Of a stretch of DNA of 21,753 nucleotides, positions 1,143-21,753 are shown one piece after another. Under the pieces are notes generated by a model. That model ran no database searches, was not told the DNA's origin, and was given only the letters and a program-made list of their open reading frames with translations. Within the stretch, counting starts at the first letter, position 1; every line of letters starts with the position of its first letter. The position numbers and the translations under genes were made by a program. The stretch lies in IMG/VR virus record IMGVR_UViG_3300023278_001741, positions 1 through 21,753 of that record. One strand, 5' to 3'. Origin of the DNA: a virus.

Positions 1143-2456
1143 ATGAGTGTACCCAATCATTGGTATATCCGTCGTCTAGAAGAACACCCTAGTAGACTTA
1201 ACAAAGAACAAATCCTAGCAGATGCTAACAATTCAGATGCAAAGGATTTCTTTGTTGGCGTTCGCATGGCATTAGATCCTCTTGTAACATTTGGCGTCAA
1301 ACAGGTTCCTGTTAAAACAGAACCTGATGGCCCCGGTCTTGCCTTTGACGGCTTTGTTAAAGTAGCAACACAACTACAGAGCAGAGAACTCACAGGCAAT
1401 ATTGCACGAAGTGCAATTGATGCAATGATGAACACCTCAACACAAGCAGAATGGAACGACTTTTATCGTCGTATCCTGATCAAAGATTTGCGATGCGGTG
1501 TAAGTGAAAAGACTGTAAACAAAGTAGTACCAGGTTGTGTTCCTGTGTTTACTTGCGCTCTTGCTCACGACAGTGCCAATCATGAAAAGAAAATGAAGGG
1601 CAAGAAACAGATTGAAATCAAACTCGACGGTGTTCGTGTTCTTGTTGTTATTCACGACACTCACGGCAAGAAGATTGAAATGTACAGTCGTAACGGAAAA
1701 CAGTTTCACAACTTTGATCACATCATTGAAGAAATCCGTGCTGTAGTGCAAGAGTATCCTGTGCCTTATCCGCTAGTACTTGACGGTGAAGTAATGAGTG
1801 CTAGTTTCCAAGATCTAATGAAGCAGGTACATCGTAAGGATAATGTAGAAGCAAACGATGCTGTACTGCATTTGTTTGACACTATTCCGCTAGGCTGTTT
1901 CCAAAATGGTACATGGGACAAGCCACAGAGTTTCCGTAGTGCTATCACTAAACATTGGGTAGAAGAACATGCAAGCGTTTTAAAGCATGTACAAGCATTG
2001 GACTGGGAAACTGTAGACTTGGATACACCCGAAGGCAACAAACGCTTTGTAGAGCTTAATAAAGCGGCTGTAGACGGTGGTTATGAAGGTGTAATGATCA
2101 AAGACATTGATGCACCCTACGAATGCAAACGAACTCACGCATGGCTCAAAGCCAAACCATTTATTGAAGTAACTCTTAAGGTAGTTGGCTATGAAGAAGG
2201 TACTGGACGAAATATCGGACGCCTTGGAGCTCTGGTTTGCTCCGGCAACGACGATGACAAAGAAATCACAGTCAATGTTGGTAGCGGCTTTAGCGATTGT
2301 GATAGAGATGATTTTTGGAGTGTCGGCCATCTTCTCCTTGATCAACTTGTGGAAGTAAGAGCAGACGCAGTTACACAAAACCAAGACGGAACATATAGTT
2401 TGCGTTTTCCCCGTTTTAAAACATTTAGAGGCTTCGAATCAAACGAAAAAATATAA
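1143..2456 (+). CDS. ATP-dependent DNA ligase (T4 gp30-like)
   Basis: Seals 3'-OH/5'-phosphate nicks in duplex DNA through a lysyl-AMP intermediate, as in joining Okazaki fragments. All nucleotidyltransferase motifs are visible in order: motif I KLDGVR at 160-165 with K160 as the adenylated lysine, YSRNGK at 181-186, motif III LVLDGE at 211-216, motif IIIa LHLFDTIPL at 242-250, motif IV EGVMIK at 315-320 and motif V WLKAK at 334-338. An OB-type C-terminal domain follows (VVGYEEGTGR onward). At 437 aa it is slightly shorter than T4 gp30 (487 aa). The N-terminal 150 residues match the usual adenylation-domain extension. AAGGAA precedes the ATG; the stop overlaps the next start by one base. Confidence 0.95.
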   Translation: MSVPNHWYIRRLEEHPSRLNKEQILADANNSDAKDFFVGVRMALDPLVTFGVKQVPVKTEPDGPGLAFDGFVKVATQLQSRELTGNIARSAIDAMMNTSTQAEWNDFYRRILIKDLRCGVSEKTVNKVVPGCVPVFTCALAHDSANHEKKMKGKKQIEIKLDGVRVLVVIHDTHGKKIEMYSRNGKQFHNFDHIIEEIRAVVQEYPVPYPLVLDGEVMSASFQDLMKQVHRKDNVEANDAVLHLFDTIPLGCFQNGTWDKPQSFRSAITKHWVEEHASVLKHVQALDWETVDLDTPEGNKRFVELNKAAVDGGYEGVMIKDIDAPYECKRTHAWLKAKPFIEVTLKVVGYEEGTGRNIGRLGALVCSGNDDDKEITVNVGSGFSDCDRDDFWSVGHLLLDQLVEVRADAVTQNQDGTYSLRFPRFKTFRGFESNEKI

Positions 2457-9508: not shown

Positions 9509-9986
9509 AGCCAAGACCAAAGACAACAGCAGTATTCCAGTACAGAGTGTCATGGGTGCAATTGATACCCGTGACTGTGACTTTTGGGACTCACTCAATG
9601 AAGAACAACAAAAGAAATTCAGTGCTTGGATCTATATGCGCTATGCAAGTGGATGTGAAAGCAAGATCCCTGAAATAAATCAACACTATTTACAGATGGT
9701 TAATGCATTTGTTAATGTTAATTTCAATGATCTAAGGCATCATCCACAACTGCAACTACAACTACTATGTCTTGCAGGCATTGGCAAGAAGCAATATCAT
9801 CCATGGATGAAGCCTCCTAAGGGTTCTAAGAAAGATAAACTAACCCAGTGGCTCAGTGATCAGTTTCCGCATCTTAAAAATGATGAAATTGAATTATTTA
9901 AAAGCATGAACACTGCTGAAGATTATGTTCAATTAGCAGAAGACCTAGGCTATACAGACAAACAGATCAAGGAACTATTTAAATAA
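9501..9986 (+). CDS. Probable clamp-loader small subunit (gp62-like)
   Basis: 161 aa from a GTG start overlapping the ferredoxin stop by 8 nt. The order of features fits phage gp62: an N-terminal F-x-x-W-I-x-x-R-like segment (KKFSAWIYMRYAS), a Y-x-x-M-V-N helix, then GKKQYHPWMKPPKG and a helical end with acidic patches. gp62 and gp44 together load the sliding clamp at primer termini. Here no gp44 gene is adjacent. The similarity is weak and drawn from memory of marine-phage gp62 proteins, so an unknown helical protein is the alternative. Confidence 0.55.
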   Translation: MTKAKTKDNSSIPVQSVMGAIDTRDCDFWDSLNEEQQKKFSAWIYMRYASGCESKIPEINQHYLQMVNAFVNVNFNDLRHHPQLQLQLLCLAGIGKKQYHPWMKPPKGSKKDKLTQWLSDQFPHLKNDEIELFKSMNTAEDYVQLAEDLGYTDKQIKELFK

Positions 9987-10660
9987 TGTTTATTTGTGCG
10001 TACTGCAATAAGAGTTTTAGCAAAGAAAATACTCTTACTGTGCATATGTGCGAGCAAAAGCGTAGGCATATGGTTCAAAATGATAAGCCTGTTCGACTAG
10101 GGTATAGAGCATATCAGTTGTTTTATACTAAAAACACCAACAGTAAAGAACCCAAGACCTATAAAGAGTTTGCAAAAAGTTCTTATTACACAGCATTTGT
10201 GAGATTCGGAAAACACATACTAGACATCAATGCTATTGATCCAGAAAAATTTATTGAATTTGTGTTGCGTATGGGTGTTAAACTGGACAACTGGTGTAAA
10301 GACTCAGTGTATGAAGAATATGTGCGAGACTTAACCAAGCGAGAAAGTGTTGACAGAGCAGTTGAAAGAAACATACTGTTAATGCAACAATGGAGTTTAC
10401 AAGAAGAACAAGAGTGGACCAAGTTCTTTGACAAGATAACACCACAACTAGCAGTGCATTGGATCAAGACAGGTAGAATAAGTCCATGGATTATATACGG
10501 ATGTGATGCGGCGCAGAATCTATTAGACAGAATGAACGACGAACAAATTAAAATGGTAGCTGAATATATTGATCCTATCTATTGGCGCAAGCGTTTGATT
10601 AAACAGCGTGAAGATGCTCAGTGGATTCAGGGTGTATTTAAAAGTGCAGGAGTTGTATAA
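9986..10660 (+). CDS. Zinc-finger protein, conserved in marine T4-like phages
   Basis: 224 aa beginning MFICAYCNKSFSKENTLTVHMCEQKRR: C4-x2-C7, then 12 residues to H20 and C22 (or H28), a C2H2/C2HC-type finger at the very N-terminus. The remaining 190 residues are helical, with YRAYQLFY, SSYYTAFVRFGKH and a late ISPWIIYG block. I recall the same domain layout in unannotated cyanophage proteins located next to replication genes. The finger would bind DNA or a replisome partner. Start and stop overlap both neighbours by one base (TAATG), so it is translationally coupled to the gp62-like and mini-DnaE genes. Confidence 0.8.
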   Translation: MFICAYCNKSFSKENTLTVHMCEQKRRHMVQNDKPVRLGYRAYQLFYTKNTNSKEPKTYKEFAKSSYYTAFVRFGKHILDINAIDPEKFIEFVLRMGVKLDNWCKDSVYEEYVRDLTKRESVDRAVERNILLMQQWSLQEEQEWTKFFDKITPQLAVHWIKTGRISPWIIYGCDAAQNLLDRMNDEQIKMVAEYIDPIYWRKRLIKQREDAQWIQGVFKSAGVV

Positions 10661-11238
10661 TGCAAGCAACAGATATTGATATTGACTTTGCAGATCGAAA
10701 ACAAATACTAGAACTAATTCCACACAGTGTGGCCATGATCGAAGACAAGGGTCGAAAGCGCAAGCATAACACAGGTGTGTATTTTCATCGCATGCCAGAA
10801 GATCCTGTAACAGGATTAAGCACAGTTGATCACAAGCAAGCAGAACAAATGGGCTTCTTTAAATTGGACATGCTTAATGTGAGTATGTATGCAGGCGTCA
10901 ACGACGAAGCTCATCTATTAAGGTTGATGAATCAAGAACCTCATTGGGATCTATTGTGTCATCGAGAGGTTGCTGAACAGTTATTTCATGTGGGCAACCA
11001 CAGTGAGTTATTGGCACAACTAAAGCCCAAGAGCATAAGTGATCTTGCAGCAGTGTTGGCAATTATTCGCCCAAGTAAACGATATCTAGCTAAAAGCAGT
11101 TGGCCAGATATTCGAAAAGAAGTTTGGATTAAACCTGATAACGACGAGTACTTCTTTAAGAAAAGTCACGCTATAGCATATGCAACTGCGGTTGTAGTAC
11201 AAATGAATCTTATTTGTGAGCAGTTGACTACTTCTTGA
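10660..11238 (+). CDS. Mini-DnaE: reduced C-family DNA polymerase core
   Basis: 192 aa that aligns by eye with separated parts of the bacterial DNA polymerase III alpha palm and fingers. It opens with DIDIDF at 5-10 (the PDxDxDF catalytic motif, D7 and D9), continues through KHNTGVYFHRMP to GFFKLDML (D70 in the place of the third palm aspartate), then WDLLCHREVAEQLF, LLAQLKPKSISDLAAVLAIIRP at about 117-138 and KKSHAIAYA at 167-175. PHP, most of the fingers and all C-terminal domains are absent. AGGAG lies 7 nt before the ATG. Polymerase activity is not established; it may be a primer- or template-handling relic. Similar small proteins exist in cyanophages to my recollection. Confidence 0.75.
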   Translation: MQATDIDIDFADRKQILELIPHSVAMIEDKGRKRKHNTGVYFHRMPEDPVTGLSTVDHKQAEQMGFFKLDMLNVSMYAGVNDEAHLLRLMNQEPHWDLLCHREVAEQLFHVGNHSELLAQLKPKSISDLAAVLAIIRPSKRYLAKSSWPDIRKEVWIKPDNDEYFFKKSHAIAYATAVVVQMNLICEQLTTS

Positions 11239-12477: not shown

Positions 12478-13527
12478 ATGAGTATTGTGTTAGACTTCGT
12501 ACGACAGTATATCCCGTCTGGTTGGCGATCCTCCGCCAACGGCTGGACCAGTGGCAATTGTCCAATGTGTACATACAATGGACAAACGAGGCCTGACACT
12601 CGCAAACGAGGCGGCTTTTATATTGAAAGTGACACGCTCCAATACAACTGTTTTAACTGTGGTTACAAAACAGGTTGGAGCCCGGGCCGTCCTATCAATC
12701 CCAGACTGGTAAAACTGTTAGAAATACTGGGTGCAGACAAAGCAGATGTGCAACGGATTAAACTGGAATTGGCTCGCAGTGAAGAGCTCCAGCAAGTATT
12801 AGAGAGAAAAGTAGATGAAGAGAAGCCGGCAGTCTTCAACTGGCCAGAAGTTCAATTGCCAGCCGTTGCACACAGTTTATATGATTGGGCTAGGCATCTG
12901 CTAGACAACAACGAAGATTCTACGCAGTACAGTTCAATTGCTGAATACGCTATTAATAGAAACTTTGATATACAGGATCGTAGACTGTATTGGAGCAACT
13001 GCCCAGCACACGGTCTTACCAAGCGTATACTGATACCGTTTACATATCGAGGCAGGCCTGTAGGATACACTGCAAGATGGGCATGTGGTGATAAGCCAGA
13101 GTCAGTACCCAAGTACTTTAATCAGACTCCAAAAGACTATGTGTTTAATTTAGACGCACAAAACAGTGAGCGCAAATATGTGTTGGTAGTAGAAGGTCCG
13201 TTGGATGCACTATACATTGATGGTGTTGCAATTCTGAGTAACAACTGTAGCAACACGCAGGCAAAAATAATTGAAGAACACAATCCGGGCAAGCAGATTG
13301 TGATTGTGCCTGACAGAGACAGTGCAGGCGCAGGATTGGTCAATACTGCAATCAAAAGAGGATGGGCAGTGAGCTTCCCGCCATGGCAAGAAGGCGTAAA
13401 AGATGTAGGTGACGCAGTAGATCGATATGGTAGACTGTTCACACTTAAGAGTATAATTAGTAGTATACACACAAACGAAGGTAAAATTAAAGTGCTTACC
13501 AAAAAGCATTGTAAAGGAAATAATTAA
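12478..13527 (+). CDS. DNA primase (gp61-like)
   Basis: Synthesises RNA primers at the fork together with the gp41-type helicase. N-terminal zinc ribbon: C28-x2-C31 (NCPMCTYNG) and C58-x2-C61 (NCFNCG). Toprim domain: VLVVEGPLDAL at 235-245 (catalytic E239, D243), VPDRDSAG at 277-284 (D279, D281) and KDVGDAV at 308-314. At 349 aa it is the length of T4 gp61 (342 aa). No Shine-Dalgarno is evident before ATG 12478. The stop overlaps the helicase start by one base, matching the coupled 61-41 function. Confidence 0.93.
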   Translation: MSIVLDFVRQYIPSGWRSSANGWTSGNCPMCTYNGQTRPDTRKRGGFYIESDTLQYNCFNCGYKTGWSPGRPINPRLVKLLEILGADKADVQRIKLELARSEELQQVLERKVDEEKPAVFNWPEVQLPAVAHSLYDWARHLLDNNEDSTQYSSIAEYAINRNFDIQDRRLYWSNCPAHGLTKRILIPFTYRGRPVGYTARWACGDKPESVPKYFNQTPKDYVFNLDAQNSERKYVLVVEGPLDALYIDGVAILSNNCSNTQAKIIEEHNPGKQIVIVPDRDSAGAGLVNTAIKRGWAVSFPPWQEGVKDVGDAVDRYGRLFTLKSIISSIHTNEGKIKVLTKKHCKGNN

Positions 13528-14909
13528 TGGCAAGTGAATATAGTGCAGAAATGCAAAAACTCTACATTGAGTTTATGTTAACAAATCCAGAACTGTACAC
13601 TAGGGTCAGTGGTATCACAGACAAAACATTTTATGATCCAGAGTATAGAGAAACTGTAGAGTTTATTAATACACATGTCAACCAATATGGCGCAATGCCC
13701 ACAGTAGAGCAACTGCGAGCAGTAGCAGGTCAAGACTATAATAAAGTACCTGGCATTGACAAACGATATGAAGATTGGTTTTTGGATGAATACGAAAAGT
13801 TTTGTAGACACAAAGCACTTGAGGCTGCTATTCTTAAGAGCTATGACAAACTTGAAAAGAAAGAATATGGTGAAGTTGAAAAGATTGTAAAGGATGCAGT
13901 GCAGTTGGGTTTGGCCAAAGATCTAGGCACAGACTATTGGGCCGACCCCGCAGGTCGTTTGGGCAGTATTAAAGAGAGCAACGGACAGACCAGCACAGGC
14001 TGGAAAACATTTGATGCTAAACTGTATGGTGGATTTAATAGAGGTGAACTCAACATCTTTGCAGGTGGTTCTGGTGCAGGTAAGAGTTTGTTCTTGCAGA
14101 ATCTTGCAATCAATTGGAGTAAGGCTGGATTAAACACACTGTACATCAGTTTGGAACTTAGCGAAGGGTTGACCAGTATGCGACTTGATGCTATGAATAC
14201 TAATATGGGCACCAAAGACCTGTTTAAGAATCTTGATGATGTTGACATGAAGATTCGCATAATGGGCAAGAAAGCAGGCAAACTGCAAATTGTGCAATTG
14301 CCCAATGGATGTACCATTAATGATTTGCGAGCATATGTTAAAACATATGAAGCAGAAAAGAATGTGAAAGTGGATGCTATTTGCGTAGACTACTTGGACT
14401 TGATGTTTCCTGTAAGTGTTAAAGTAAGTGCAGAGAATTTGTTTATTAAAGACAAATATGTCAGTGAAGAATTGCGTAACTTTGCAATGGAAGGCAACTA
14501 TCTGTTTGTAACGGCCAGTCAGTTGAACAGGGGTGCAGTAGATGAAGTTGAATTTGATCACAGTCACATCAGTGGCGGCTTGAGTAAGATTCAAACTGCT
14601 GACAATGTGATTGGTATTTTTGCTAGTAGACCAATGCGAGAGCGTGGCAGAGTACAAATTCAGTTTATGAAAACTCGTAGTAGTAGTGCAGTTGGTAGTA
14701 AATTGGATCTGGCATTTGATATTAACAGTTTGAGAATTGATGATTTAGACGAAGATGAAACTGAAGAAGCAGGCGCAAGCACAATTTATGACAAATTAAA
14801 ACAAAAAAGTACAGTAACAAATGCACAATCTAACAGTGCAGTAGTAGAAAAAGTGTCCGGTGCCGCCGGACAAGACCGATTACGCAGCCTGTTGCGTAAA
14901 ATGGAATAA
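13527..14909 (+). CDS. Replicative DNA helicase (gp41, DnaB-like)
   Basis: Hexameric 5'-3' helicase of the T4 primosome. N-terminal helical domain to about residue 135, then the RecA-like core: Walker A GGSGAGKS at 180-187, LYISLELSEG at about 205-214 with catalytic E210 region, Walker B ICVDYLDL at 285-292, and VTASQLNRG at 328-336. T4 gp41 is 475 aa; this is 460. AAGGAA lies about 7 nt before the ATG, inside the primase gene end. The acidic C-terminus (DLDEDETEEAG) probably contacts the primase or loader. Confidence 0.95.
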   Translation: MASEYSAEMQKLYIEFMLTNPELYTRVSGITDKTFYDPEYRETVEFINTHVNQYGAMPTVEQLRAVAGQDYNKVPGIDKRYEDWFLDEYEKFCRHKALEAAILKSYDKLEKKEYGEVEKIVKDAVQLGLAKDLGTDYWADPAGRLGSIKESNGQTSTGWKTFDAKLYGGFNRGELNIFAGGSGAGKSLFLQNLAINWSKAGLNTLYISLELSEGLTSMRLDAMNTNMGTKDLFKNLDDVDMKIRIMGKKAGKLQIVQLPNGCTINDLRAYVKTYEAEKNVKVDAICVDYLDLMFPVSVKVSAENLFIKDKYVSEELRNFAMEGNYLFVTASQLNRGAVDEVEFDHSHISGGLSKIQTADNVIGIFASRPMRERGRVQIQFMKTRSSSAVGSKLDLAFDINSLRIDDLDEDETEEAGASTIYDKLKQKSTVTNAQSNSAVVEKVSGAAGQDRLRSLLRKME

Positions 14910-14922: not shown

Positions 14923-14946
14923 ATACAAGAGAATGAGGACATGAAT

Positions 14947-15198
14947 ATGCAACGCAATACTAAAAGCCTATTACACGAAATCAATGCATTTGCTAAAAGA
15001 CAAGACAAACATCATATTGTTGAAAGCAAAGCAGATAATGTTATTGCCACTGTGATTAATTTTGTACAATTAATCGACGAAGTATATTCAGCTGAGGATG
15101 CAGACGATCTAAAAAAGAGATTATTCAACAGTATTAAAACAAATGATCCTCGTAAATTCACTCGTGGTATAAGAAGAATTCAAAATGAAAGCAAATAA
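14947..15198 (+). CDS. Small helical late protein (83 aa), unknown
   Basis: I place the start at ATG 14947, 8 nt after GAGG at 14935-14938; ATG 14941 is only 2 nt from that Shine-Dalgarno. The product MQRNTKSLLHEINAF... is predominantly helical and basic at its end (FTRGIRRIQNESK). Similar short unannotated proteins with a S-L-L-x-E-I-N-x-F opening precede structural genes in cyanophages, by recollection. The late promoter upstream and the gene order suggest a prohead or internal protein. The frame is open further upstream, but that part is shadow within the helicase gene. Confidence 0.7.
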   Translation: MQRNTKSLLHEINAFAKRQDKHHIVESKADNVIATVINFVQLIDEVYSAEDADDLKKRLFNSIKTNDPRKFTRGIRRIQNESK

Positions 15199-15219: not shown

Positions 15220-16557
15220 ATGCGTTTTTATGAGATTGCTTTAACAGGCAAAAGAAAAAGAAAGCAGCGTGGCGATCGTGCAAACAGAATGATCCAACGA
15301 CAACTGCATGACAGTATCGTTGAAGCTGAAGGTAAAAACACACACCTTGAGCATTTAGAAGATCAGATCCTCAATATGGGCTACGATGGCGTTCAACAAA
15401 CTATCAGTTACCTTAAAAATCTATACAGTATGCTAGACGGACACGCAAGCAGCAGTGTGCGAGTAACTACCAAGTGGGACGGAGCCCCTGCTATTGTTGC
15501 AGGTCCTGATCCTGTAGACGGAGAGTTCTTTGTAGGTACTAAGGGTGTATTTGCAAAAGATCCTAAACTTAATAAAACACTGGCAGACATTGAACAGAAT
15601 CATGGTGATGTTGACCAAAAAGGTGAAACAGTTTCAAAAGAAGGACTCAGAAGTAAACTGCGTCCTGCATTAGAATATCTAAAGCAACTGAACATGCCCA
15701 CAGTTATGCAGGGTGATCTGTTGTTTACACCAGACATGCTAAAAACTGCCACAATTGAAGGCGAAGAATATATTACATTTAAGCCAAACACAATCACATA
15801 TGCAGTACCAGCAAACAGTGATCTTGCAACAAAGATTCGCCGTGCTAAATTGGGTATTGTGTTCCACACAACCTATGATGGCGGCCCGACACTGGCAGAT
15901 ACACAAGCACAATTTGGTGCAGACATTGACGCTCTAACACCAACGCCTGATGTGTTCTTTGACAATGCAGACATCAAAGACTATAGTGGCACTGCATCAA
16001 TGACTGCACAAGAAACAAAATTAATTAAAAAAGCAATCAACGATGCAACTCGTTATGCTAACCAAATTGGCAAGAAAACATTTGAAGTACTCAACAACAG
16101 TGCTATTAAAGACATTGCCACTGAACTAAAAGCACATGTAAACAATTACATTAAAACACAGGGATCGTTTACAGAAGATCCTGCACAGTATGTAGATGAC
16201 TTTGTTGCAAGAATGAACAACAAGTACAACGCACAGATCGAAAAGCTCAAAAGCGAAACAGGCAAAGAGCGCAAGGCACAAGAAATGGAGCAGGGCATTC
16301 AGTGGATCAATGATAACAAAAGTGCGCTAGAAGGCATTTATGGATTGTACCTGCGTATTATGGCTGCAAAATTAATGTTTGTTAAAAAACTGAGCCAAAT
16401 TGATAACATTCCTGCATTCTATGCAAACGAAGATGGCAGTTATACAGTTGCAGATCCAGAAGGCTTTGTTGCTATTGATCACATGGGCAATGCAGTTAAA
16501 CTGGTAGACAGATTAAAGTTTAGTGCTGCTAACTTTGGCGATAAGAATTTTGGGTGA
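15220..16557 (+). CDS. Ligase-like nucleotidyltransferase fold protein, probably virion-associated
   Basis: 445 aa with GGGAGG 9 nt upstream. I recognise it as an unannotated family of marine T4-like phages (probably DUF6267). Its motifs parallel covalent nucleotidyltransferases: KWDGAP at 85-90 (motif I, K85), FFVGTKGVF at 103-111, VMQGDLLF at 162-169 (motif III-like), GIVFHTTYDG at 212-221 (IIIa-like), EGFVAID at 414-420 (motif IV-like) and VKLVDRLKFS at 426-435 (motif V-like, compare Rnl2-type ligases). About 190 helical residues are inserted between IIIa and IV. The N-terminus is very basic and carries SIVE/A at 32-36, a gp21-type cleavage site. Enzymatic activity is inference. Confidence 0.8.
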   Translation: MRFYEIALTGKRKRKQRGDRANRMIQRQLHDSIVEAEGKNTHLEHLEDQILNMGYDGVQQTISYLKNLYSMLDGHASSSVRVTTKWDGAPAIVAGPDPVDGEFFVGTKGVFAKDPKLNKTLADIEQNHGDVDQKGETVSKEGLRSKLRPALEYLKQLNMPTVMQGDLLFTPDMLKTATIEGEEYITFKPNTITYAVPANSDLATKIRRAKLGIVFHTTYDGGPTLADTQAQFGADIDALTPTPDVFFDNADIKDYSGTASMTAQETKLIKKAINDATRYANQIGKKTFEVLNNSAIKDIATELKAHVNNYIKTQGSFTEDPAQYVDDFVARMNNKYNAQIEKLKSETGKERKAQEMEQGIQWINDNKSALEGIYGLYLRIMAAKLMFVKKLSQIDNIPAFYANEDGSYTVADPEGFVAIDHMGNAVKLVDRLKFSAANFGDKNFG

Positions 16558-18660: not shown

Positions 18661-18963
18661 ATGAAGTTTAATGAAATATTATCAGAAAGTACAGGCGATG
18701 TCATTGTCGAAGCCAAAGTGGTTTGGGCAAGAAAAGGCAAGGCTATTACTCGCAAATACCGTTGTACATTTGGAAAGAGGGCAGGCAGAGTTGTTGCTAG
18801 TCCTGCTCAATGTTCAGCGCCAATTGACATCAAAAAGCGTTTTGCACTAAAAAGACTTAAAGCAAAGATGGGCGGCAAAATGGCTCGCAAGGCCAAACGC
18901 ACCAAAAGAACAAATCCTCAAAGTAAAAGGATTGCAGCACTAAACAAGGCGGCCAAACGATGA
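18661..18963 (+). CDS. Very basic small protein, likely packaged with DNA
   Basis: 100 aa with a strongly basic body: most of residues 19-100 are Lys/Arg-rich (MARKAKRTKRTNPQSKR near the end). The N-terminal 18 residues are different, acidic, MKFNEILSES...DVIVEA, with two gp21-type prohead cleavage candidates, ILSE/S (after 9) and VIVE/A (after 17). The likely reading is a capsid-targeting propeptide removed during head maturation, releasing a DNA-binding internal protein. I recall similar cyanophage proteins with an RKGKAITRKYRC opening. Expression is probably gated by the hairpin/late-promoter switch directly upstream. Confidence 0.8.
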   Translation: MKFNEILSESTGDVIVEAKVVWARKGKAITRKYRCTFGKRAGRVVASPAQCSAPIDIKKRFALKRLKAKMGGKMARKAKRTKRTNPQSKRIAALNKAAKR

Positions 18964-19466
18964 GATTTAATGAAGTTGTAATTAAAGATAAAAAGATGTA
19001 TGATGCGTTGAGCAGTATGCTATCAACCGCAGGCATTGAAAAATCATCCGACGACCTAGTAGATGCAGTAAAAGATCTAAGTGTTACTGATTTAACCCTG
19101 TTATTCAAAGCAATTGAAGATCAGGATATAGATGAAGTAAGATTCATCTTAGGTAACCTATTAGAATACAAGAGCCCAAGTTTTAAAATGGGCGACAGAG
19201 ATCCAGGTGGTGATACTGGTCGATACAGTAGAGATGCAGTACAACCACAGAAATATTATAGTCAATCAAACATTGTTGCAGGCGGAAAAAAAGCTGTAAC
19301 AGGTGGCGGATACAATGACGCCGATATGACTGTCGAACCAAACCAACCAATTGATAGAGCAGACAACCCAGATTATGCCACCATTACAACTGCAAGCGGC
19401 GACCAAAAAACAATTCAAAGTCCTGTCGCCATTGCCCGTGTAAAACGACTAGCAGGATTACGATAA
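18960..19466 (+). CDS. Unknown late protein (168 aa)
   Basis: ATGA overlap with the basic-protein stop. N-terminus MRFNEVVIK resembles the MKFNEILSE of the previous gene; the first 70 residues are helical, with a death-fold-like pattern of short leucine-rich helices, and the rest is Gly/Asp/Gln-rich and probably flexible (GDRDPGGDTGRYSR, TGGGYNDADM), ending in VKRLAGLR. It is a late gene by position. Function unknown. Confidence 0.7.
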   Translation: MRFNEVVIKDKKMYDALSSMLSTAGIEKSSDDLVDAVKDLSVTDLTLLFKAIEDQDIDEVRFILGNLLEYKSPSFKMGDRDPGGDTGRYSRDAVQPQKYYSQSNIVAGGKKAVTGGGYNDADMTVEPNQPIDRADNPDYATITTASGDQKTIQSPVAIARVKRLAGLR

Positions 19467-19690
19467 TGAGAATAATCGAAGTACAGGGTGGCATCCCCAT
19501 TATGTTAAGCAACAAGGAGTACGATGTATTGTGCAAGTGTACACCTGGTGTTTATAAAAGCGAACTTTCTGAAAGGGAACAGCATATTGCTAAAGCCTTA
19601 ACCAGCAAGGGTGCTATTGTTAGAGGAAAAGACGACAATGGCATTTATTATAGATACAACAGAATAAATCCAGGAGACTACAATGGTTGA
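19466..19690 (+). CDS. Small unknown protein, winged-helix-like
   Basis: 74 aa with a TAATG overlap at the start and an 8-nt overlap at the end. The pattern MRIIEVQGGIPIMLSNKEYDVLCKC...LSEREQHIAKALTSKGAIVRGKDDNGIYYRYNR, with two helices then a beta-hairpin, fits a small winged-helix domain. The start also resembles the M-R-[FI]-x-E pattern of neighbouring virion genes. Function unknown. Confidence 0.65.
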   Translation: MRIIEVQGGIPIMLSNKEYDVLCKCTPGVYKSELSEREQHIAKALTSKGAIVRGKDDNGIYYRYNRINPGDYNG

Positions 19691-20314: not shown

Positions 20315-21753
20315 ATGTTTGTAAATGATTTCACAAATAGTGCAAAGAGATTAAAAGTATTGAATGATTACCTCAGTGACAACTTTGGTATCAAGCTCAA
20401 GACTGAAAATTTAACGCCTCAAAAAGTGCGTGATCTATTAGAGCAAGTGAAATCTGAACCAAACATGCAAAAGCGTTTGGTAATGACAGAAGCACTAAAC
20501 ATTATCCTAAGAGAAATTGCACCTAAGCGTAGCAAAAAGCGCAAGGCAACAGAAAGTGTTAGTCTTAACGAACAAGCATTACCCGTAGAACAAATTGGAT
20601 TGATTGATCCAGAAACTGGTAGAATCTTAAGTGCTAACCAAAATGCAAGACCCCAAGTCAGATTTACAACTCGTGGTGGTAATGTAGTTGATATTACAGA
20701 TGCACTAAGACGCAACCCTAATATTGCTAGATCATATGCTACTACTCTTAACAATCAAGCATTTAACTTTTTACAAAATGCAGATGAACTTGCAAGACTT
20801 CGCCGCGGCCTAGGCGCTGCCAACGACAATAGATTTAGACAACTTGGTGGACAACTAGCAGATGTTGCTGATAGTAAACTGGGTTGGATTGCTAGAAATG
20901 CAGGCAAGTTAACTTGGTTGGGCAGATTGGCCAGAGTTGCTAGCCTTCCAATGGCTGCACTTGAGTATGCAATAAGCCCAAGTGAGTTAGGTGACGGTAC
21001 TGTTCCTGAAGAATGGAACCTTGCAGTAGAATTAGCAAGAGCTGGTGACTTTACGGCTGCTGAAGAATTAACTAGCAGAGAGTTTGTTGAAGAACTTCAG
21101 CGAACTGATACAGTAACACAAGAAACATTGCGTAGACTCAACACCGAGGCTATGGATATTGAAAATGAAATTTGGCAAAATGCTGATAGAGAAACACGAG
21201 ATCGCGAAGCACAAAGAGCTCGTGATGAAATAACTCGTGATCATACAACTGCATTTAGTCCACAGCCTGTAGAACCAGTTGAGCCTGAGCAACCTGACGC
21301 ACCAGAAGTAGAGCCAGCTGAACCGCCAGCAAGACCAGCAAACGATCCTACCCCTCCTGGTGTAGTTCCAATATTTCCACCAGTAGTGCCTGCTCCTAGT
21401 AAGCCATTTGTTCCGGACACTACTCCTATAGAGCTGCCAACACCTGCAAACGATCCTACACCACCAGCGCCAGCACCAGAAGAGCCAGCACCAGAGCAAC
21501 CTGCACCAGAAGAGCCAGCGCCTAGTACGCCTCCTCGTCCTGCTGCGCCCCCGCAACCTAAACCAGATACTCCTCCGGAAGAAAAGCCTGAGGATCCAGA
21601 ACCAGAAGAAGAAACACCTGACGAAAAGCCAGAAGACAAGCCGGAGCCTAAGCCAGAAGACAAGCCTGCTGAGGAACCTGCTGAGGAACCTGCTGAGGAA
21701 CCTGCTGAGGAACCAGCAACTGACCCAGCAACTGATCCTGCAACTGATCCTGC
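20315..21753 (+). CDS. Long late protein with Pro/Glu-rich tail (3' partial)
   Basis: The frame stays open from ATG 20315 to the window end (479 codons plus 2 nt); an ATG at 20301 stops after seven codons. Residues 1-90 are helical, with a SLNE/Q site near 85 resembling a prohead cleavage site. A middle section (about 95-310) is mostly helical, with an amphipathic basic-hydrophobic stretch LGWIARNAGKLTWLGRLARV. From about 315 to the edge the chain is Pro/Glu/Ala-rich (EEPAPEQPAPEEPAP). It could be an internal or ejection protein with an extended linker; the C-terminal domain is outside the window. Confidence 0.8.
   Translation, partial: MFVNDFTNSAKRLKVLNDYLSDNFGIKLKTENLTPQKVRDLLEQVKSEPNMQKRLVMTEALNIILREIAPKRSKKRKATESVSLNEQALPVEQIGLIDPETGRILSANQNARPQVRFTTRGGNVVDITDALRRNPNIARSYATTLNNQAFNFLQNADELARLRRGLGAANDNRFRQLGGQLADVADSKLGWIARNAGKLTWLGRLARVASLPMAALEYAISPSELGDGTVPEEWNLAVELARAGDFTAAEELTSREFVEELQRTDTVTQETLRRLNTEAMDIENEIWQNADRETRDREAQRARDEITRDHTTAFSPQPVEPVEPEQPDAPEVEPAEPPARPANDPTPPGVVPIFPPVVPAPSKPFVPDTTPIELPTPANDPTPPAPAPEEPAPEQPAPEEPAPSTPPRPAAPPQPKPDTPPEEKPEDPEPEEETPDEKPEDKPEPKPEDKPAEEPAEEPAEEPAEEPATDPATDPATDP
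21665..21753 (+). repeat. 12-bp in-frame tandem repeat encoding PAEE/PATD
   Basis: CCTGCTGAGGAA repeats four times exactly (21665-21712), then three diverged units CC[AT]GCAACTGA[CT] (21713-21748) encode PATD, and a further unit begins at the edge. The unit equals four codons, so copy-number change would keep the frame. Confidence 0.85.

Follow-up and report, generated by a model that had tools for sequence, protein, structure and literature searches.

Does the open reading frame two genes behind the replicative helicase of this virus encode a ligase, and would that ligase be carried in the capsid? The window, by which we mean the whole stretch of DNA analysed (an IMG/VR virus record of 21,753 bases), contains an ATG ORF on the plus strand (15220–16557) encoding a protein of 445 aa. 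From a Pfam match, motif conservation, an AlphaFold model and structural matches, this DUF6267 protein is predicted to be a ligase-type covalent nucleotidyltransferase.

The DUF6267 family and its conserved motifs

The window protein matched Pfam DUF6267 (PF19782) with an E value of 1.8e-103 (347 bits, against a cut-off of 27) and covered positions 1–372 of the 376 in the profile, and is thus a full-length member; it also corresponds to PHROG 455. The family (DUF6267, PHROG 455, T4-GC 71/190 of S-PM2) has no assigned function, and the name DUF6267 was not met in the literature searched. The clade of the window differs from DUF6267 at large in having an extra basic propeptide of about 35 aa. 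In tblastn searches, the family was retrieved from 463 phage records with the window protein as the query, and from 471 with the S-PM2 copy. Nearly all these records are T4-like cyanophages, together with the pelagiphage HTVC008M, the Methylophilales phages Melnitz and the Stenotrophomonas phage DLP6. DUF6267 was present in 371 Synechococcus and 61 Cyanophage records, as compared with 376 and 61 for the S-PM2-type gp43 polymerase; it is close to universal in T4-like cyanophages. A ligase-type prediction would give a testable function to a function-less family found in nearly every gp43-bearing record of these phages.

An earlier note on this DNA had proposed five nucleotidyltransferase motifs and an N-terminal SIVE/A (residues 32–36), and all of them were found at the residues claimed. 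Motif I is KWDGAP (residues 85–90; 15472–15489), with K85 as the proposed nucleotidylated lysine and K, D and G invariant in both branches of the family; motif III is QGDLLF (164–169; 15709–15726), in which D166 replaces the usual Glu, is invariant over 61 homologues and stands, in a profile alignment that was not significant, opposite the RNA-ligase QGE; motif IIIa, GIVFHTTYDG (212–221; 15853–15882), is conserved and forms a beta strand in the model; motif IV is EGFVAID (414–420; 16459–16479), with E, G and V invariant in both branches; and motif V is VKLVDRLKFS (426–435; 16495–16524), with K427 and R431 invariant in both branches (all on the plus strand).

In the 61 homologues (41–68% identity), K85, D87, G88, Q164, G165, D166, G212, H216, T217, E414, G415, V417, K427 and R431 were invariant. 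A short branch (about 300 aa, 37 sequences), with K37/D39/G40 as motif I (invariant in all 37), kept the equivalent K, D, G, Q, D, H, E, G, V, K and R without exception, and the profiles of the long and short branches were 33% identical in an alignment of 297 columns (E 5e-64). K85 and E414, the pair on which the earlier proposal turned, are conserved throughout, as are their equivalents in the short branch. The residues picked by eye are thus those held by selection across both branches, and the motifs are more than chance. One short sub-branch (A4; e.g. L179, L189 and L232) has QAD for QGD in motif III and keeps the other motif residues. The acidic residue of motif III in covalent nucleotidyltransferases is usually Glu, and their motif V is KxK; the motif III Asp and a motif V with R431 and no second Lys are family-wide departures from the textbook ligases.

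Predicted fold and comparison with known ligases

Sequence profiles provided no link to ligases. Neither the window protein nor eight relatives matched a ligase family in the Pfam scan, including the Rnl2-type RNA ligase PF09414 and the DNA ligase PF01068, no ligase match was obtained with NCBIfam, and hmmsearch against the PDB did not connect DUF6267 with a ligase. The profile-profile comparison proposed in the earlier note also went against a detectable relationship, with hhalign giving Prob <1% against T4 Rnl2 and bacterial RNA ligases; in these non-significant runs, TTKWDGAP was placed on ISEKLDGSS, QGD on QGE and HEGYV on REGIV. Matches of DUF6267 to the Tsp45I, AA_kinase and SorB profiles fell below the cut-off and were taken as chance.

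The AlphaFold model of the window protein (61-row alignment) had a pLDDT of 86.9 and a pTM of 0.80, and that of the short branch, built from its own separate alignment, 90.0 and 0.86. Ligases accounted for 49 of the 50 best PDB rows obtained with VIA-align for the window-protein model, the first being the Naegleria RNA ligase (NgrRnl; Z 8.8 over 184 residues, 3.6 A), with REL1 (Z 7.9), T4 Rnl2 (7.8), fungal Trl1 (7.2), T4 Rnl1 (7.0) and human DNA ligase 1 (6.5) in further rows; the comparison with Rnl2 and the T4 ligase folds advised in the earlier note therefore placed both T4 RNA ligases among the best matches. All 50 best rows for the short-branch model were ligases, again headed by the Naegleria RNA ligase (Z 9.8), and RNA ligases ranked above DNA ligases for both models. 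Foldseek alone yielded no match at E <= 0.001 for either model, with ligases dominating the top of the short-branch search. Z values of 8–10 are moderate when taken singly, and we propose a ligase fold because one superfamily fills both top lists from two separate alignments. With two separate predicted structures matching ligases best and the proposed catalytic residues invariant, DUF6267 very probably has the covalent nucleotidyltransferase (ligase-type) fold suggested previously.

The structural alignments end at model residue 440/441 on residue 339 of NgrRnl, which, provided that the tail contains no gap, would align K427 with K326, the motif V lysine of NgrRnl, and these end points are compatible with K85 and E414 meeting in one pocket; the spacing between motifs IV and V is 13 residues in the window protein (E414–K427) and 14 in NgrRnl (E312–K326). 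Between motifs IIIa and IV lies a predicted insert of six helices (residues 263–394; 16006–16401, plus strand; DSSP of the model, pLDDT mostly >90). A helical insert of 190 aa had been described here, its oddity being taken as a possible sign of a repurposed fold. The insert is present, but the helical part covers about 130 aa of the 192 residues between the motifs. Because the insert is standard across the family (shorter in the short branch), it lends no support to a repurposed fold, and the view that this protein is a lone exception with an unusual insert was rejected. Only 18 residues follow K427, which leaves motif V without a succeeding OB or C-terminal nucleic-acid-binding domain.

The best structural matches of DUF6267, NgrRnl, T4 RNA ligase 2 and trypanosome REL1, are nick-sealing Rnl2-like RNA ligases. 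K170 and D172 of NgrRnl belong to a motif I of the form KxDG, as in DUF6267, the motif IV Glu and the motif V Lys occur in the same order and spacing in both groups, and the N-terminal stretch KYSSLEN of T4 Rnl2 resembles the start of the DUF6267 core, KNTHLEH. DUF6267 differs from the Rnl2-like ligases in its lack of detectable sequence similarity, its motif III Asp, the absence of the second motif V Lys and the helical insert, and it lacks both the N-terminal OB domain of NgrRnl and the C-terminal domain of T4 Rnl2.

Candidate N-terminal signals for capsid targeting

In T4, targeting to the capsid depends mainly on residues 4 and 7 and processing on residues 8 and 10, the protease gp21 following an L/I-x-E rule (Black's work, reviewed in PMC9026906). 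IPII and IPIII begin with MKTYQEFIAEA (read from NC_000866), and the tag pattern used here was aromatic, aromatic, aliphatic and Glu at positions 4, 7, 8 and 10. DUF6267 homologues carry MxxFxxFLxEA in the register of the tag of the capsid-targeted, injected T4 proteins (IPII/IPIII and Alt) and have an L/I-x-E-type cleavage site in common with them; the known T4 internal proteins are not ligases, unlike the predicted DUF6267 fold. The patterns were written after the N-termini had been seen, so the counts for DUF6267 are descriptive: the strict T4-like pattern was found in 26 of 61 long proteins, and a slightly relaxed version, which picks up targeting sequences like those of the T4 internal proteins (e.g. 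MYSFKQYLSESK), in 44 of 88 long homologues. An [ILVM]xE sequence lies within 16 aa before the core in 58 of the 61 homologues, a short-motif occurrence only. Over whole contigs the tag was rare: it was found in 2 of the 180 ORFs of contig G003 (DUF6267 and a cytidylyltransferase-like protein), in 3 of 180 Melnitz ORFs, one of which is the gene directly upstream of DUF6267, and in none of the 181 ORFs of HTVC008M. On a tree of the 88 long forms, the tag label requires at least nine changes and the untagged copies six, and the idea that the tag arose only once in the family was rejected; packaging, if that is what the tag means, would have been repeatedly gained or lost on one enzyme core.

S-CREM2 provided a more independent test of whether the tag marks virion proteins in this phage family: four of its five tagged ORFs, compared with 45 of the 194 others, are in the list of virion proteins (Fisher p 0.014), for which the authors say that co-purification is possible (PMC10665884). 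Among the tagged proteins are a SAM hydrolase (MKDFDSFLEE), an APH-like kinase (VKRFDAFLTE), a cytidylyltransferase (MKNFSSFLTEA) and gp13 (MKDLHSFLTE); the three enzymes, detected in virions by mass spectrometry, share their N-terminal tag with the DUF6267 homologues and belong to other families. The DUF6267 copy of S-CREM2 is a short form without the tag and is absent from that list. Similarly, the cytidylyltransferase of S-SZBM1 (MRFRQFIIEA) was found in virions, and the untagged DUF6267 copy of this phage (MAKNTHLEH) is absent from the reported virion proteins. This simple N-terminal signature may reveal the set of injected proteins of marine T4-like phages. In the Cas9-like gp12 of S-CREM2 (L371, 4205–6814), reported in virions, a tag-like LRFASFMAEA lies some 17 residues from the annotated start. 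In S-CRM01, g130 (L107, 9697–12162), annotated as a kinase and located two genes behind DUF6267, belongs to a type that has been reported in the virions of this phage, and its N-terminus, MISFDQFLSE, matches the T4-type tag exactly.

In the window protein and its nearest relatives the basic propeptide (MRFYEIALTGKRKRKQRG...DSIVE/AEGKN) is longer than in the T4 internal proteins and does not follow the strict T4 pattern. The putative propeptide corresponds to residues 1–35 (MRFYEIALTGKRKRKQRGDRANRMIQRQLHDSIVE; 15220–15324, plus strand), with candidate cleavage at IVE/A between residues 35 and 36, as judged from disorder in the model (pLDDT <50 for most of residues 1–37), the clade-wide pattern given below and the T4 gp21 rule. 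The resemblance of this site to those of prohead proteases, remarked upon before, seems justified, as I33-V34-E35/A36 fits L/I-x-E. The start of the protein, MRFYEI, is a clade variant common to neighbouring genes, the clade-wide pattern being M[KR][FILV]x[ED][ILV]...[ILV]xE. Three other window genes within 18661–19690, all on the plus strand, begin with M[KR][FILV]x[ED][ILV]: one for a basic protein of 100 aa that also has IVE/A (MKFNEILSESTGDVIVEAK; 18661–18963), one for a protein of 168 aa (MRFNEVVIK; 18960–19466), and one for a protein of 74 aa (MRIIEV; 19466–19690) matching phrog_16215, 'virion structural protein'.

The gene directly upstream of DUF6267 (14941–15198, plus strand) encodes 85 aa, matches phrog_11854, 'virion structural protein', and contains HHIVES; its syntenic counterpart in contig G001 has VVES, and similar sites (IVES, IVEA and VVES) occur in genes neighbouring DUF6267. 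Before it lies a DnaB-like replicative helicase (13527–14909, plus strand; PF03796, E 3.9e-18), downstream of which DUF6267 is also found in cyanophages and pelagiphages. The gene had been assigned to a late block, which is a loose description: it is placed two genes behind the helicase and heads a run of small genes with weak matches to virion proteins. G001 (134.8 kb) has gp21, gp23 and the same gene order as the window. Seven of its 156 ORFs carry the clade signature; the DUF6267 cluster of 12 ORFs accounts for six of them (hypergeometric p 3e-7), and the remaining one adjoins gp21. Six of seven related records contain a gp21-type protease, one of them being G001, from which the window relative L005 comes; the window is itself a 21.7-kb fragment. 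These signals suggest that DUF6267 is probably targeted to the capsid in the window phage, and packaging of the window protein may reasonably be inferred from them. In G001, two proteins of 729 and 537 aa (L344, 4762–6951 and 6954–8567), both starting with MKIN and without a confident Pfam match, are encoded between the 86-aa gene and DUF6267 and are candidates for further injected proteins.

Proposed function and alternatives

The reading that we favour is that the window protein is a divergent, active ligase-type enzyme that is targeted to the capsid and injected, a full statement for which we consider the chances to be even. ATP would supply the AMP that is attached to K85, in a pocket shared with D87, D166, E414 and K427, and, once adenylated, the enzyme would join broken polynucleotide ends, those of RNA (e.g. 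cleaved host or phage tRNA) being likelier than those of DNA. The basic propeptide would bring it into the prohead, where a gp21-type protease would cut after IVE35, and the mature enzyme, starting at A36, would be injected with the genome and act in the first minutes of infection. The analysis itself established the membership of the family, the predicted fold, the invariance of the motifs and the occurrence of the targeting signal in homologues; in this statement we infer catalysis, substrate, cleavage, the packaging of the window protein and timing, and the likelihoods expressed here for fold, activity, targeting and the full statement are judgements rather than computed values. That the protein is an active end-joining enzyme is, on balance, more likely than not.

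The window has a DNA ligase of its own, as indicated previously: the gene at 1143–2456 (plus strand) encodes an ordinary ATP-dependent enzyme (PF01068, E 2.9e-20; phrog_114) with an OB domain (PF14743). The DUF6267 copy of the window would therefore probably be injected and join ends, with RNA as the likelier substrate. RNA-end repair is favoured for the packaged forms because the nearest folds are RNA ligases and some homologues have neighbouring kinase genes whose products match the profiles of L-seryl-tRNA kinase and zeta/AAA_33. The flanks in the window's clade contained neither a kinase nor a cytidylyltransferase partner, and the preference for RNA over DNA is therefore a lean only. The regular expression used for kinase motifs also caught the P-loop of DnaB, so the resulting kinase count of 36 does not represent true kinases. 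A general tRNA-repair operon (kinase and ligase) was considered and stays a hint, since kinase genes are confined to a minority of the loci and none was seen near the window. No virion-packaged nucleic-acid ligase was found in the literature searched; if the favoured reading is true, a virion-borne ligase would represent a new type among phage ejection proteins. Its extension to the whole family, with DUF6267 as an unrecognised polynucleotide ligase of T4-like marine phages that was turned into a virion-borne, injected enzyme in many lineages, is more tentative, and we would put it below an even chance.

Alternatively, DUF6267 might serve T4-like marine phages as their replicative or repair DNA ligase in place of gp30, sealing nicks in phage DNA, with packaging secondary in some lineages. 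A 2010 review reported that g30 homologues had not been found in cyanomyoviruses and, leaving open the question of distant homologues, considered use of the host ligase more probable (PMC2984593). In our scan, which detected both the DNA and the RNA ligase of T4 as a control, no match to PF01068 (ATP-dependent DNA ligase), PF01653 (NAD-dependent DNA ligase) or PF09414 (RNA ligase) was obtained in eight complete genomes of marine phages bearing DUF6267 (S-PM2, HTVC008M, Melnitz-3, P-SSM2, S-RIM8, S-SZBM1, S-CREM2 and S-SCSM1). DUF6267 may thus be the enzyme that cyanomyoviruses were reported to lack, and its near-universal distribution and its location within the gp43-uvsX-gp41 replication cluster also favour this reading. 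DUF6267 is a good candidate for this role, which could explain nick sealing in cyanomyoviruses that have no recognisable g30 ligase (PMC2984593). However, a DNA ligase accompanies DUF6267 in the window, S-CRM01 and DLP6, the capsid tag present on many copies is needless for a replication enzyme, RNA ligases outrank DNA ligases among the structural neighbours, and the host enzyme may serve these phages, as argued in that review. We regard this reading as unlikely.

Less probable still is a nucleotidyltransferase acting on other targets (protein AMPylation, capping or NAD-linked chemistry), together with a neighbouring NMNAT/cytidylyltransferase-like virion protein. To our knowledge, protein AMPylation is not an established function of the ligase-type nucleotidyltransferase fold, which counts against this possibility, and the cytidylyltransferase-like partner was not seen within the flanks of the window's clade. 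Elsewhere, cytidylyltransferase-like genes lie downstream of DUF6267 in 29 of 129 loci, despite short flanks, and S-PM2 has DUF6267 fused to a CTP_transf_like domain in one protein of 591 aa (LN828717; structure matches). Proteins of this type have been found in cyanophage virions (PMC3037559, PMC10665884, PMC9602691), and T4-GC190, the cytidylyltransferase cluster, was described in 2010 as an experimentally determined virion protein of cyanophages (PMC3037559). The fusion is a single open 591-aa frame in LN828717 (93485–95260; L110, 7486–9261) and is split into two ORFs, T4-GC 71 and 190, in NC_006820 (103025–104804; L101, 7992–9771), a difference due to either a sequencing error or a real frameshift. 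In contig G003, a 900-aa protein (L351, 7289–9991) combines a tag with two domains, one cytidylyltransferase-like and the other a zeta/AAA_33 kinase.

A structural or scaffold-associated virion protein keeping a dead ligase fold would accord with the capsid-type N-terminus, the 'virion structural' PHROG matches of the neighbouring genes, the motif III Asp and the absent second motif V Lys, but a dead fold would not keep its catalytic residues invariant over branches that are about 30% identical, and untagged copies are retained in cyanophages (e.g. S-PM2, S-SZBM1 and S-CRM01), so we consider this explanation highly improbable and reject a structural protein of the late block as the sole reading.

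Two further regions of the window deserve mention. A 192-aa protein (10660–11238) has a weak match to the finger domain of DNA polymerase III alpha (PF17657, E 0.005) and adjoins a C2H2 zinc-finger protein (9986–10660); it may represent part of a DnaE-like protein within a replication region of T4-like type. At the other end, an open-ended ORF (20315–21751), cut by the end of the window, has a C-terminal proline/glutamate-rich low-complexity repeat (EEPAEEPATDPATDP).
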